From contig JAKAUN010000004.1 in the NCBI GenBank assembly GCA_021817605.1, positions 132,427 to 168,465 of the forward strand: 36,039 nt of DNA, in the 5' to 3' direction. Both the position numbers and the translations under genes were made by a program. Every line of letters begins with the position of its first letter. The stretch's first letter is position 1. The notes beneath the pieces are model-generated. The model was not told where the DNA came from. It ran no database searches and saw only the letters and a program-made list of their open reading frames with translations. This DNA is from Thermoplasmata archaeon (GTDB lineage: Archaea > Thermoplasmatota > Thermoplasmata > Lutacidiplasmatales > UBA184). Shown piece after piece: positions 26,189 through 30,369 of the stretch.

Positions 26189-26548
26189 TTAGAGCGACCT
26201 CTCCACGATCTGGCCGAGCTCGTCCGAGAAGAGGTCGACCAGCTCCTTGGTGACGCTGCGCCGGACCTCCGGAGGAAGGGCCGCGAGGCCGAGGCGGGCG
26301 CTCGCCGTCCCGACCCGGAGGAGCGCCGCATACTCGGTCGCCCGCGCGGCGAGAAGGTCGCGCACGGCGTCCCGGAGATCCTGGGCGAGCTTCGGGTCGT
26401 TCGCGAGGGTCTTCTCGAGGTGGCGACGGATCTCGTCCTTGACGATGTCCCGTGTCGCCTCCCGGACGAGCTCCTCGGGGCGCAGGAGGTCGCGGGAGCC
26501 CTTGACGAGCACGTCGATCGGCTCGCCGGAAGAGCCTTCTGCGGGCAT
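26189..26548 (-). CDS. Small helical protein upstream of PAC2, unknown function
   Basis: A 119-residue, highly charged, almost entirely helical protein (for example RDIVKDEIRRHLEKTL and LRDAVRDLLAARATEYAALL). There are no cysteines, signal peptide or membrane segment. I do not recognise the family. The stop is 3 nt from the PAC2 ATG, so the two proteins are likely made together and may interact. A TATA-like CCTTATC centred 28 nt before ATG 26548 supports this start and a leaderless message. Its size and helical make-up could suit a proteasome-chaperone cofactor, but this is context-based inference only. Confidence 0.72.
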   Translation of the reverse strand: MPAEGSSGEPIDVLVKGSRDLLRPEELVREATRDIVKDEIRRHLEKTLANDPKLAQDLRDAVRDLLAARATEYAALLRVGTASARLGLAALPPEVRRSVTKELVDLFSDELGQIVERSL

Positions 26549-26579: not shown

Positions 26580-26723
26580 GTTCGCCTCGGACGGCAGCCG
26601 GGCGGGCGCCCCGCTTGCCGGGGGACCCCCGGCTCCCGCGCTCTGCCCCGTCCCCCTGCGAGCCGACCGGACCGGCGGGCGCCTCGAGGGGCGAGCGACG
26701 GACCGCCGGTTCGGAAGTAAGCT

Positions 26724-26729
26724 CTTATT
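26724..26729 (+). promoter_or_regulatory. TATA-like element of tRNA-Ala
   Basis: CTTATT, preceded by AAGTAAGCT, ends 25 nt before the first base of tRNA-Ala. It is the only A/T-rich stretch in this GC-rich intergenic region. Confidence 0.5.
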
Positions 26730-26754: not shown

Positions 26755-26858
26755 GGGCCGGTAGATCAGCGGAAGATCGCTACCTTGGCAAGGTAGAGGT
26801 CGCGAGTTCAAAGGACAGCGGAGCCCGCCTCCGATGTCGGAACTTCTCGCCCGGTCCA
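26755..26858 (+). tRNA. tRNA-Ala(GGC) with a T-loop intron
   Basis: Acceptor strands 26755-26761 and 26851-26857 pair over 7 bp and contain G3:U70, the alanine identity pair; the discriminator is A (26858). D-stem GATC/GATC encloses a 7-nt loop with G15 and GG. The anticodon stem CTACC/GGTAG encloses TTGGCAA, giving anticodon GGC at 26787-26789. The T-stem GCGAG (26802-26806) pairs with CTCGC (26846-26850), but 39 nt lie between the arms instead of 7. Removing 32 nt leaves the canonical loop TTCAAAT, so the mature tRNA is 72 nt. CCA is not encoded. Scanners that do not allow T-loop introns may miss this gene. Confidence 0.9.
26813..26844 (+). other. 32-nt bulge-helix-bulge intron, tRNA position 59/60
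   Basis: The T-stem is followed by a central helix TTCA/GGAA (3 Watson-Crick pairs plus A-G). The 3-nt bulge AAG is cut after AA (26812|26813) and the bulge CTT after CT (26844|26845). The intron itself forms GACA/TGTC and CGGAG/CTCCG around a CCCGC loop. This geometry follows the archaeal hBHBh' rule for the splicing endonuclease. Splicing one position upstream (giving TTCAATT) would fit the bulge pattern less well. Confidence 0.8.
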
Positions 26859-26922
26859 CTCCCCGGAACCCAGGGGTCCCTTCGGCAGGTGTCGATGCGA
26901 AGGACGACAGCAACCCTAGCGA

Positions 26923-26928
26923 TTTATA
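26923..26928 (+). promoter_or_regulatory. TATA box of the mevalonate operon
   Basis: TTTATA in GCGATTTATAGAGC is centred about 26 nt before GTG 26952. This marks GTG 26952 as a leaderless start; the in-frame ATG at 26889 would lie upstream of the promoter. Confidence 0.65.
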
Positions 26929-26951
26929 GAGCGGCCCTCTCCCCGCCTTCC

Positions 26952-27629
26952 GTGGAGGTAGAGCTCCGCGAGAAGATCGCCGGAGAGGTCGTTCTCTCCC
27001 CCCACCCGGGGCGGACGCTCCGCAAGTGGCGGGAGGACTTCAAGGTCACCCAGCGCGACCTCGCCCGGGAGCTCGCCACGACCCCGTCGGTCATCAGCGA
27101 CTACGAGTCCGAGCGACGGGTGAGCCCCGGCGCCGGGTTCATCCGACGCTACGTAGACGGGCTCTTGTCGCTCGACACGCGCCAGGGCGGCAGCAGCGGG
27201 CTGCGCTACGCTCTTCCCGCGCACACCGAGGGGATCCTCGGGTTGCGCGAGTTCGCGATCGCGATGCCGCTCAAATCGCTCGCCGACCGTCTCGAGGCGA
27301 AGCCGGTGAGCCGCGTCGACCTGCACCGCGACGTCCACGGCTTCACGGTCCTGGACGCTCCTAGAGCGATCCTGTCGATGGACGCGGTGCGCTTTGTCGA
27401 GGCGTACGGCTGGACGACCCAGCGTGCGCTCATCTTCGCCAACGTGAAGTACGGCCGCTCGCCGATGGTCGCGATCCGCGCCCATCCGCTCAAGCCGGCC
27501 GCCGTCTTCTTCGCCAGCCCCGGCCGGGTCGATACCCTCGCCATCCGGCTGAGCGAGGCGGAGAACATCCCGCTCCTCACGACAGCGCTGAGCGCGCCCG
27601 CCGTGCTCGAACGGCTTGAGGAGCTCTGA
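26952..27629 (+). CDS. HTH transcriptional regulator heading the mevalonate operon
   Basis: A 225-residue protein (GTG start set by the TATA box) with an XRE-type helix-turn-helix at about 21-72: TLRKWREDFKVTQRDLARE and TTPSVISDYESERR. The C-terminal domain (about 95-225) is alpha/beta, with segments such as VRFVEAYGWTTQRALIFANVK and PLLTTALSAPAVLERLEEL. Archaeal regulators of this two-domain type (COG1709-like) are commonly found directly upstream of HMG-CoA synthase, as here (15 nt gap). It probably controls its own operon, perhaps by sensing an isoprenoid precursor or CoA ester; the ligand is unknown. GAGGAGCTC near the 3' end may serve as Shine-Dalgarno for the next gene. Confidence 0.85.
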   Translation: MEVELREKIAGEVVLSPHPGRTLRKWREDFKVTQRDLARELATTPSVISDYESERRVSPGAGFIRRYVDGLLSLDTRQGGSSGLRYALPAHTEGILGLREFAIAMPLKSLADRLEAKPVSRVDLHRDVHGFTVLDAPRAILSMDAVRFVEAYGWTTQRALIFANVKYGRSPMVAIRAHPLKPAAVFFASPGRVDTLAIRLSEAENIPLLTTALSAPAVLERLEEL

Positions 27630-27644
27630 CAGGTACACCGAAAC

Positions 27645-28697
27645 ATGCAGGCAGGGATCGTGAGCTACGGGGCGTATGTGCCGAGGTACCGGATCACGCC
27701 GGCCGAGATCGGCCGCGTCTGGGGAACGGACGGCGAGGCGGTAGGCCAGGGGCTCGGGGTCCGTCGCAAGAGCGTGCCGGCCCCGGACGAGGATACGATC
27801 ACCATCTCGACCGAGGCGCTGCGCACCGCGCTCGTCCGTGGCGGGATCGACCCGCAGCAGATCGGCGCCGTCTACGTCGGCTCGGAGTCCCACCCCTACG
27901 CGGTCAAGCCCACGGCGACCGTCGTCGCCCAGGCCGTCGGCGCGACCCCGAACATGACGGCGGCGGACTTCGAGTTCGCCTGCAAGGCCGGCACGGCGGC
28001 GATCCAGGCCTGCCTCGGCCTGGTCGGCGCGGGGATGATCCGCTACGGCATCGCGATCGGGACCGACACCTCCCAGGGAGCTCCCGGCGACGCGCTCGAG
28101 TACTCGGCGAGCGCCGGCGGGGCGGCGTTCGTCATCGGCACCGAGCACGTCATCGCGCGGGTCGAGCGGACCCTCTCCTACACCACCGACACGCCGGATT
28201 TCTGGCGCCGCGAGGGCCAGCGCTATCCGAGCCACGGAGGACGCTTCACCGGCGAGCCCGCCTACTTCCGCCACGTGACCGAGTGCGCCCGTCGCCTGTT
28301 CGAGGCGTCGGGGACCTCGCCGAAGGACTACGCCCACGTCGTTTTCCACCAGCCGAACGGCAAGTTCCCCCAGCGCGTCGGCCGCCAGCTAGGTTTCTCC
28401 GAGGAGCAGATGCGCTACGGGCTCGTGACGCCCTCCATCGGCAACACCTACTCCGGAGCCGCTCTCATCGGGCTCGCCAACGTCCTCGATCATGCCGGTC
28501 CGGGCGAGCGCGTCCTGCTCATCGGCTACGGCTCGGGCGCCGGGTCGGACGCCTTCGACCTTGAGACGACCGAGGAGCTGGCGAGCTTCGACCGCAACCA
28601 CGGCCTTCCGGTCCAGCACTACCTCGATCACGGCGTTGAGATCCCCTACGCCGTCTACGCCAAGTTCCGCGGGAAGATCCACATGGGAGGGAGCTAG
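27645..28697 (+). CDS. Hydroxymethylglutaryl-CoA synthase
   Basis: Forms HMG-CoA from acetyl-CoA and acetoacetyl-CoA, the committed condensation towards mevalonate and archaeal lipids. It has 350 residues. The catalytic triad is intact: E81 in [14 protein letters not shown]113 in [10 protein letters not shown] and H235 in [27 protein letters not shown] and the C-terminal [15 protein letters not shown] match the archaeal enzymes. Established work on a methanogen shows a complex of HMG-CoA synthase, thiolase and DUF35 with a shared CoA-binding site; the next two genes encode those partners. The start is 4 nt after ACCGAA and lacks a close Shine-Dalgarno. Confidence 0.96.
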
Positions 28698-28700
28698 GCG

Positions 28701-29870
28701 ATGCGCGAGGTCGCCGTCCTGGGAGTGGGCCAGACGAAGTTCGGCGAGCTCTGGGACCGCTCGTTCCGGGAGATCGGCATCGAGGCCGGGCTCGGCGCCC
28801 TCGTGGACGCCAAGCTCTCCTCCGCCGACCTGGGCGCGCTCTACCTCGGCAACATGGCCTCCGGTTCGCTCATCGACCAGGAGCATATCGCCCCCCTCAT
28901 CCTCGACTACGCCGGCCTCGCCGGCCGCCACCTGCCGGGGGTCCGCGTCGAGGGCGGAGATGCTTCCGGCGGGCTCGCCCTCCACCAGGGCTACCTCGCC
29001 GTCGCGAGCGGCCTCTACGACTACGTCGTCGTCGGCGGGGCGGAGAAGCTCACGGACGTTTCGGATGAGGCCGCGACCCAGATCGCGGCCTCGACCGCCG
29101 ACCACGAGTGGGAGGTCGTCTTCGGGGCCACCCTACCGGCGCTCTGGGCGCTCGTCGCGCGCAGGCACATGCACCTGCACGGGACCCTGCGCGAGGAGCT
29201 CGCGGCGGTCTCGGTCCACGCGCACGAGATGGGTTCGAAGAACCCCAACGCGCACTACCGCAACCGCCTCAGCATCGAGCAGGTGCTCCACGCTCCGCCG
29301 ATCGCCGAGCCGCTCGGGATGCTCGACTGCGCCCCGTTCTCGGACGGCGCCGCGGCGGTCGTCCTCGGCCCACTCGAGGAGGCCAAGCGCCACACCGACA
29401 CGCCGATCCGCATCGCCGCGAGTCAGGTCGCCTGCGACACGATGGCCCTCCAGCACCGCGACGATCTCACCTCCGTGGCCTCGACCGTTCGGGCGGCCCG
29501 CGCCGCCTTCGCGCGCGCCCGGCGTGCGCCCAAGGACGTGCGCGTCGTCGAGGTGCACGACGCCTACTCGATCAGCGCCCTCGTGGCCCTCGAGGACCTG
29601 GGACTGTGCGAGAAGGGGGCTGCGGGCAAGGCGTACGCGAGCGGGTCGTTCGGCCTCGACGGGCCGCTCACGGTGAACCCGTCCGGCGGGCTCAAGGCGC
29701 AGGGCCGCCCGTTCGGTGCGGTCGGGGTCGCCCAGGTCGTCGAGATCGTCCGTCAGCTGCGCGGCGAGGCGAAGGACCGCCAGGTCCCGGACGCCTCGCT
29801 CGGACTCTGCCACGACCTCGGGGGCACCGGGGCGACGGCGGTGGTCCATCTGCTCGAGAGGGCGGGGTGA
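28701..29870 (+). CDS. Thiolase-family protein of the mevalonate operon, catalytic residues altered
   Basis: The position and fold are those of the archaeal acetoacetyl-CoA thiolase (389 residues, 3 nt after the synthase stop, GGAGGG upstream). The N-terminal VAVLGVGQTKFGEL, the DGAAAVVLG strand, H286 in VEVHDAYSISALVALEDLG and PSGGLKAQG are typical. However, the nucleophile motif A-C-A-S-G reads GGDASGG, with D87 at the Cys position (codon GAT). The GHP-x-GATG motif reads GRPFGAVG, with R336 for His (codon CGC). With two of the usual catalytic residues changed, normal acyl transfer is doubtful; a structural role in the synthase/DUF35 complex or different chemistry is possible. The other thiolase at 1993-3177 keeps all of them. 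Confidence 0.87.
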   Translation: MREVAVLGVGQTKFGELWDRSFREIGIEAGLGALVDAKLSSADLGALYLGNMASGSLIDQEHIAPLILDYAGLAGRHLPGVRVEGGDASGGLALHQGYLAVASGLYDYVVVGGAEKLTDVSDEAATQIAASTADHEWEVVFGATLPALWALVARRHMHLHGTLREELAAVSVHAHEMGSKNPNAHYRNRLSIEQVLHAPPIAEPLGMLDCAPFSDGAAAVVLGPLEEAKRHTDTPIRIAASQVACDTMALQHRDDLTSVASTVRAARAAFARARRAPKDVRVVEVHDAYSISALVALEDLGLCEKGAAGKAYASGSFGLDGPLTVNPSGGLKAQGRPFGAVGVAQVVEIVRQLRGEAKDRQVPDASLGLCHDLGGTGATAVVHLLERAG

Positions 29871-29880
29871 GGGAGGAGCG

Positions 29881-30369
29881 ATGTCGGTCGCAAGGTTCTG
29901 GCGCGAGACGCCCCGTCGCTACAATCTCGCCGGCAGCCGCTGCGCGGTCTGCGGCAACGTTTACTTCCCGCCGCGGGCGGTCTGCCCGTCCTGCCCCCAC
30001 CACCGCCAGTCGATCGAGAAGATGCTACCGTTCCAGCTGAGCGGAGCCGGGGAGGTCATCTCCTACACGATCGTCCACGAGGCGGCCGAGGGGTTCGAGA
30101 TGCAGGTCCCCTACGTCCTCGCCCTCGTGAAGACGGTCGAGGGGCCGGTGCTCACCGGCCAGGTCGTCGACATCGAACCGGCGGAGGTCGGGATCGGCCT
30201 CAAGGTGCGGGCGACCTTCCGCAAGCTCCGCGAGGAGGGCAAGGCGGGGGTCATCCACTACGGCTACAAGTTCTCCCCCGTGGTCGAGGAGGAGCTCGGA
30301 CGGCGACCGGCCGGCCCGCGGGCCTCCGTCCCGTCGCCCACGGGCGGCCACGAGCAGGCCCGGGCGTGA
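29881..30369 (+). CDS. DUF35 OB-fold protein of the mevalonate operon
   Basis: A 162-residue acyl-CoA-binding partner of the preceding thiolase and HMG-CoA synthase. The N-terminal helix (FWRETPRRYNLAGSR) leads to a complete zinc ribbon C21-x2-C24...C35-x2-C38. An OB-fold follows (about 48-140: GEVISYTIVHEA, VLALVKTVEGPVLTGQVV). A tail of about 20 residues looks disordered. ATG 29881 has GGGAGGAG immediately upstream, which rules out the longer in-frame start at 29716. The stop overlaps the DUF835 start as GTGA. Compared with the DUF35 at 1460-1996, all four zinc ligands are present here. Confidence 0.92.
   Translation: MSVARFWRETPRRYNLAGSRCAVCGNVYFPPRAVCPSCPHHRQSIEKMLPFQLSGAGEVISYTIVHEAAEGFEMQVPYVLALVKTVEGPVLTGQVVDIEPAEVGIGLKVRATFRKLREEGKAGVIHYGYKFSPVVEEELGRRPAGPRASVPSPTGGHEQARA

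Follow-up and report, generated by a model that had tools for sequence, protein, structure and literature searches.

How can a tRNA gene be of use to its host when 32 extra nucleotides (nt) break open its T-arm? This question is raised by a locus at positions 26755-26858 of a 36,039-nt stretch of DNA (the window; contig JAKAUN010000004.1, positions 132,427 to 168,465 of the forward strand) from an uncultured archaeon of the phylum Thermoplasmatota. The locus is very probably a functional, essential tRNA-Ala(GGC) gene with a non-canonical bulge-helix-bulge (BHB) intron at position 59/60, which, judging from sequence, would be spliced by an alpha'2-type splicing endonuclease, EndA. A BHB intron at this position had been proposed in an earlier note made from the letters of the DNA, and the proposal was upheld by every computational test.

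Anatomy of the interrupted gene

All parts of the gene lie on the plus strand. The 5' exon (26755-26812) covers tRNA positions 1-59 and carries the anticodon GGC at 26787-26789 and the 5' half of the identity pair G3:U70; the intron occupies 26813-26844; and the 3' exon (26845-26858) supplies T60, the 3' strands of the T-stem and the acceptor stem, and the discriminator base A73 at 26858. The acceptor strands, including G3:U70, are found at 26755-26761 and 26851-26857, and the T-stem strands GCGAG (26802-26806) and CTCGC (26846-26850) are 39 nt apart. In-silico excision of 26813-26844 yields the T-loop TTCAAAT and a 72-nt product including A73. The full set of arms, G3:U70, A73, the gap between the T-strands and the restored T-loop had been read in the earlier note, and each was recovered in place. 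ARAGORN recognizes the spliced gene as tRNA-Ala(GGC). The unspliced gene has no match in the window by ARAGORN or by an Rfam scan at the gathering threshold, because its T-arm is broken by the intron.

Structure and covariation of the splicing motif

The insert conforms to the archaeal BHB plan (AAG / TTCA:GGAA / CTT), flanked by the T-stem and a GACA:TGTC helix. In the central helix, the exon strand TTCA (positions 54-57; 26807-26810) pairs with the intron strand GGAA (26839-26842), as indicated by the register test and by covariation at position 57. The 5' bulge AAG (26811-26813) has its predicted cut after 26812, and the 3' bulge CTT (26843-26845) after 26844. Between the strands of the central helix lies the inner helix with its hairpin (GACA...TGTC, CGGAG...CTCCG; 26814-26838), which appears in the minimum free energy (MFE) fold (z = -2.39); both strands of the inner helix have changed across 12 isotypes. 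The cuts predicted in the earlier note agree with the endonuclease rule: both bulges are 3 nt long, and joining to T60 gives TTCAAAT. Position 60 is T in 85/85 tRNAs with a T-loop intron.

Among orthologues of the genus, the first five positions of the Ala inner helix are 92% paired in the predicted register, against 22-58% when the 3' site is shifted by 1-4 nt. The Ala central helix alone is weaker evidence of register because of its A-G pair (76% paired in register vs 74% at -1). Introns of the other isotypes are paired in register at 90% in the central helix and 87% in the inner helix, and at no more than 67% and 52%, respectively, when shifted. Alignment of 12 isotypes of this genome leaves 93.5% of structure cells paired, a value that none of 500 shuffles attained and that falls to 35-51% when the strands are slid.

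The A-G mismatch, described earlier together with the other BHB elements, is present like all of them and is also conserved: of the 38 distinct Ala introns in the genus, 37 place G opposite A57. Where position 57 is G, the intron partner is C in 44/47 tRNAs; where it is A, the partner is G in 27/38, T in 6, A in 4 and C in 1. In Asp, Asn, Arg(TCT) and Gly(TCC), position 57 and its intron partner switch in concert between genomes. Because the partner follows the exon base across tRNAs, the A-G pair is a habit of the family to which this genome belongs (f1; other f-numbers denote other families of Thermoplasmatota) and no defect of this Ala(GGC) copy.

Conservation, promoter and need for the gene

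The mean identity among 37 distinct genus orthologues is 97.8% in the 5' exon and 98.3% in the 3' exon, compared with 61% in the intron, 61% in the 40 nt upstream and 56% in the 40 nt downstream; the intron thus evolves at the pace of its flanking DNA. Orthologous loci place the tRNA likewise, about 0.9 kb upstream of a 3-hydroxy-3-methylglutaryl-CoA (HMG-CoA)-synthase-like gene. A promoter resembling a B recognition element with a TATA box, GAAGTAAGCTCTTATT (26714-26729, plus strand), places its TATA core 26-31 nt before the start of the tRNA. Across 38 distinct upstream regions of the genus orthologues, the consensus GAAG..TTTAT is conserved at about -38 to -28, with an A/T content of 87-95% at -31 to -29 in flanks that are otherwise very GC-rich.

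The genome containing the window comprises 1.75 Mb in 16 contigs and is rated 100% complete. A second Ala(GGC) gene was sought across it and none was found, including the intact, intron-less copy that the earlier note had named, in combination with a silent locus here, as evidence against its proposal. The two remaining Ala tRNAs have the anticodons CGC and TGC, and both are intact; in six neighbouring genes, GCC and GCT together account for 134 of 260 Ala codons. In sampled genomes outside f1, Ala(GGC) carries an uninterrupted TTCAAAT, and the intron is present in all seven f1 genera examined. From exon conservation, the promoter, the sole copy found, codon use and the intact orthologues outside the family, it follows that Ala(GGC) is a needed gene whose intron was gained in, or retained by, family f1.

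Other interrupted tRNAs of the genome

The search-based inventory of this genome (G000) holds 45 tRNA genes, to which the following counts refer. Twenty-three introns were found in 21 of them: at least 14 in the T-loop, 5 in the D-loop and 4 in the anticodon loop. Weak tRNA matches elsewhere in the genome resolved as tRNAs with a T-loop intron like that of Ala(GGC). T-loop introns interrupt Ala(GGC), Arg(TCG), Arg(TCT), Asn, Asp, Gln(CTG), Glu(CTC), Gly(TCC), His, Lys(TTT), Leu(TAG), Ser(GCT), Ser(GGA) and Ser(CGA). Initiator Met, Arg(GCG) and Pro(TGG) are interrupted in the D-loop, as are Lys(TTT) and Leu(TAG), which thereby have two introns each. A further group, made up of Tyr, Leu(TAA), Trp and one CAT tRNA, is interrupted in the anticodon loop. 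Introns of these two loops were assigned by visual inspection and ARAGORN; the register test covered T-loop introns. The rarity implied by the earlier note, which had likened the intron to those of crenarchaea, thus did not hold: the intron is not isolated, and the trait runs through f1 and parts of the phylum.

When 74 genes with T-loop introns were spliced in silico, ARAGORN returned the expected anticodon in 74/74, compared with 24/74 unspliced. The inserts are 22-47 nt long, and their length and sequence are unconstrained except at the BHB ends. Genomes of the f1 type look short of tRNAs because interrupted genes are overlooked or wrongly labelled by the tRNA finders used here. No tRNA-Ile(GAT) was found in the inventory.

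Several individual genes merit mention. The two-intron tRNA-Lys(TTT) and tRNA-Leu(TAG) (L239 and L232/L376) lie at 10134-10275 of contig C11 and just downstream of 4814 on contig C12, and a Lys(TTT) with a lengthened D-arm and a T-loop intron was found again in several other families. The initiator tRNA-Met with its D-loop intron (L002; C11, 84080-84182) is mislabelled Arg(CCT) by ARAGORN. In tRNA-Gly(TCC) (L234; C11, 42305-42404), position 33 is C and not U. The anticodon-loop intron of tRNA-Trp(CCA) (L237; C8, about 105130-105330) measures about 100 nt and, by analogy with other euryarchaea, may hold a box C/D guide.

Distribution across the phylum and intron mobility

R1, a covariance model for tRNAs with a T-loop intron, was built from loop-trimmed, equal-length sequences of the isotypes; the loops were trimmed because a first MAFFT full-gene alignment across isotypes (A1) had misaligned the acceptor stem and the intron. 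Intact tRNAs also score against R1, reaching about 49 bits, and so a threshold set near 52 bits was combined with direct inspection; three Ser genes of this genome with long variable arms score below that threshold. When R1 was run on 300 genomes of the class, each of the 62 f1 genomes listed (seven genera) had at least 5-10 matches at E <= 1e-10; genomes without a match are listed in part, and an f1 genome of that kind may stand outside the listing. These counts are lower bounds because at most 14 candidates per genome were scored. Other families of the class, among the genomes listed, have 0-4 matches, mostly one. Most R1 matches from 12 genomes resolve automatically as T-loop introns, and 8 do not.

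Outside f1, the tRNA most often interrupted is Lys(TTT), followed by Arg(TCT) and Arg(CCG), and in most of these genes the central helix is a perfect TTCG:CGAA. Across the wider phylum, as many as 8 T-loop introns are present in members of families f35, f49 and f58. In one f49 genome of another class (G332), the introns of Asp(GTC), Glu(CTC) and Arg(CCT) (36-38 nt; L391-L393 on contigs C42, C41 and C86) are 77-93% identical outside their constrained ends, exceeding all 500 shuffles. Because near-identical introns sit in different tRNAs, these sequences indicate movement between tRNAs. In two genomes of f35/f58 (G433 and G366; L387, L388, L390, L395), a CTGCAAC..GTTGC-like intron hairpin is common to His, Lys(CTT), Arg(CCT) and Arg(TCT). 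Apparent recent transposition is visible in G332 and G433; among f1 introns of different isotypes, similarity is no higher than in shuffled sequences (0.516 vs 0.511), and no such transposition is visible there.

The splicing endonuclease

The endonuclease subunit type, a check proposed in the earlier note, was looked up in the genome. A single EndA is encoded, by a 353-amino-acid (aa) open reading frame (ORF) on contig C3 in which the PF01974 domain occurs twice; it aligns over most of its length with the alpha'2 enzyme of Archaeoglobus fulgidus (1r0v, 2gjw) and carries the catalytic Tyr/His/Lys motifs GFKYG, HARYL and VRKE in its C-terminal half only. The alignment contains no insertion where the Aeropyrum pernix alpha subunit has the K44 loop, the Crenarchaea-specific loop (CSL), nor does the clade enzyme have an insertion of its own when compared with relatives in which T-loop introns are few. 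By its sequence, then, EndA is of the single-chain alpha'2 type, without CSL or the ARMAN-specific loop (ASL). Two genomes with several T-loop introns each (G366 and G360) yielded no PF01974 match, which suggests assembly gaps or a divergent enzyme.

Enzymes of the alpha'2 type have been assigned a narrow specificity for the canonical BHB, and broad specificity has been linked to the CSL and ASL loops (PMC6379350, PMC12397907); in one paper, homodimeric EndA enzymes are credited with cleaving bulge-helix-loop motifs too (PMC8707768). The earlier note had taken the intron to imply an endonuclease with a relaxed motif, but neither this enzyme nor the motif calls for one: the motif is a near-strict 3-nt/4-bp/3-nt plan in which position 57 forms a conserved A-G pair in most A57 tRNAs and a G-C pair in nearly all G57 tRNAs. 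Because T-loop introns present this motif, a relaxed enzyme would not need to be invoked for them.

Proposed splicing route and competing explanations

It is proposed that the T-stem would serve as the outer helix of the precursor tRNA, that T-loop TTCA (54-57) would form the 4-bp central helix with GGAA near the 3' end of the intron, and that the remaining intron would make up the inner helix. The alpha'2-type EndA would then cleave once within either 3-nt bulge, at the 3' side of 26812 and of 26844, and the exons would be joined by a ligase, presumably RtcB. At least 13 other tRNAs of this genome, and most of the same isotypes across f1, would share this architecture. Because TTC(A/G)AA is nearly invariant, the T-loop of any tRNA may supply one half of a strict BHB ready-made, and introns could settle at 59/60 despite a canonical-motif enzyme. 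The delay of T-loop modifications until after splicing, as predicted earlier, is plausible.

This interpretation draws on observed gene anatomy, conservation, covariation, distribution and the enzyme type by sequence; the splicing, the enzyme specificity and the reason for the preference for 59/60 are inferred from them. Several points weigh against it. The A57-G pair interrupts the otherwise perfect 4-bp central helix of tRNA-Ala(GGC), and this helix is absent from the predicted MFE structure; 4-bp helices between bulges are easily overlooked by folding programs of that kind. Moreover, alpha'2 enzymes are reported to be strict (PMC6379350, PMC12397907), yet the A57-G pair is imperfect. That pair, seen in many central helices, together with the occurrence of D-loop introns, would accord with a spliced intron whose load in the clade is explained by an EndA broadened through a new route instead of by the T-loop sequence. 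Such broadening appears rather unlikely, as the alignment with the A. fulgidus alpha'2 enzyme reveals no CSL- or ASL-like insertions and the protein matches relatives with few such introns. Slightly favoured is the view that, throughout Thermoplasmatota, introns prefer the T-loop and are spreading there, so that short mobile introns with a matching 3' end would colonize many tRNAs (14/45 here) under a strict alpha'2 EndA, the Asp, Glu and Arg(CCT) introns of G332 representing recent jumps.

Explanations that dispense with an ordinary spliced intron fare worse. A decayed or insertion-damaged pseudogene, with Ala(GGC) supplied from elsewhere, would account for the failure of standard tRNA finders on the unspliced gene; given 98% exon identity across the genus, the conserved promoter, the BHB covariation and the lack of a second Ala(GGC) found in the genome, it is hardly credible. 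That the insert is retained, leaving the mature tRNA with an enlarged T-arm hairpin, is very improbable. Its hairpin is stable by MFE, and splicing is deduced from sequence, but an insertion in the T-loop would disturb the contact between D-loop and T-loop, insert sequence and length are free except at the BHB ends, and EndA requires precisely the pairing that exon positions 54-57 make with the end of the intron; Ala(GGC) outside f1 also lacks the insert. A tRNA that is permuted or spliced in trans, with its join at 59/60 like those of Thermofilum pendens, would suit the position, which is the junction of permuted archaeal tRNAs (PMC3218864). The exons, however, follow each other in the usual order, separated by 32 nt on a single strand and served by one promoter, and this origin is extremely unlikely; assignment to the permuted or split class was accordingly rejected.

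Neighbouring genes

Directly downstream of the tRNA and on the same strand (26889-30366), genes for a helix-turn-helix regulator, an HMG-CoA-synthase-like protein (27645-28697), a thiolase and a ChsH2-type OB-fold protein stand in a row. A 119-aa ORF on the minus strand (26189-26548), without a Pfam match, adjoins a PAC2 gene.

Comparison with known systems and biological meaning

The BHB introns of Thermoproteales tRNAs, including those at 59/60, resemble the present ones in position, in motif and in the occurrence of several introns per tRNA; the near-identical introns in different tRNAs known there are seen in the relative G332. The Thermoproteales, however, are Crenarchaeota with an (alpha beta)2 EndA and CSL, whereas the present genome belongs to Thermoplasmatota, has an alpha'2-type enzyme and focuses a near-strict 3-4-3 motif on one site. 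Canonical euryarchaeal introns at 37/38 share the strict BHB and a homodimer-type EndA, and occur here too, in Tyr, Leu(TAA), Trp and one CAT tRNA; they differ from the T-loop introns in their site, and about half of the tRNA genes are interrupted here vs <10% (PMC4090602). The ARMAN-2 system with an epsilon2 EndA is likewise a lineage outside Crenarchaeota with unusual tRNA introns, but its three-unit enzyme and ASL are absent here, by sequence. The permuted tRNAs of Thermofilum share the 59/60 junction and differ in exon order.

Euryarchaea with alpha4 or alpha'2 enzymes have been described as having <10% of their tRNA genes interrupted, by one intron at the canonical site (PMC4090602), and in reviews, archaeal tRNA genes that are intron-rich and non-canonical are associated with (alpha beta)2 or epsilon2 EndA (PMC4090602, PMC6379350). 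Family f1 contradicts this generalization of few introns confined to the canonical site. No description of T-loop introns in Thermoplasmata was found in the literature, subscription papers and tRNA databases being outside the search. The Ala(GGC) intron itself is of a known kind; what is new is its setting, a euryarchaeal-type lineage with an alpha'2-type enzyme in which the non-canonical 59/60 site dominates and about 30% of tRNA genes are interrupted there.

With about half of the tRNA genes interrupted (as counted in one genome), mostly at 59/60, alongside an alpha'2-type enzyme, f1 provides a direct counter-example to the correlation between enzyme and introns. The idea of enzyme-intron coevolution can thereby be put to the test using a single enzyme and a few RNAs. 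If a strict EndA does coexist with spreading T-loop introns, intron richness would need no enzyme of broad specificity.
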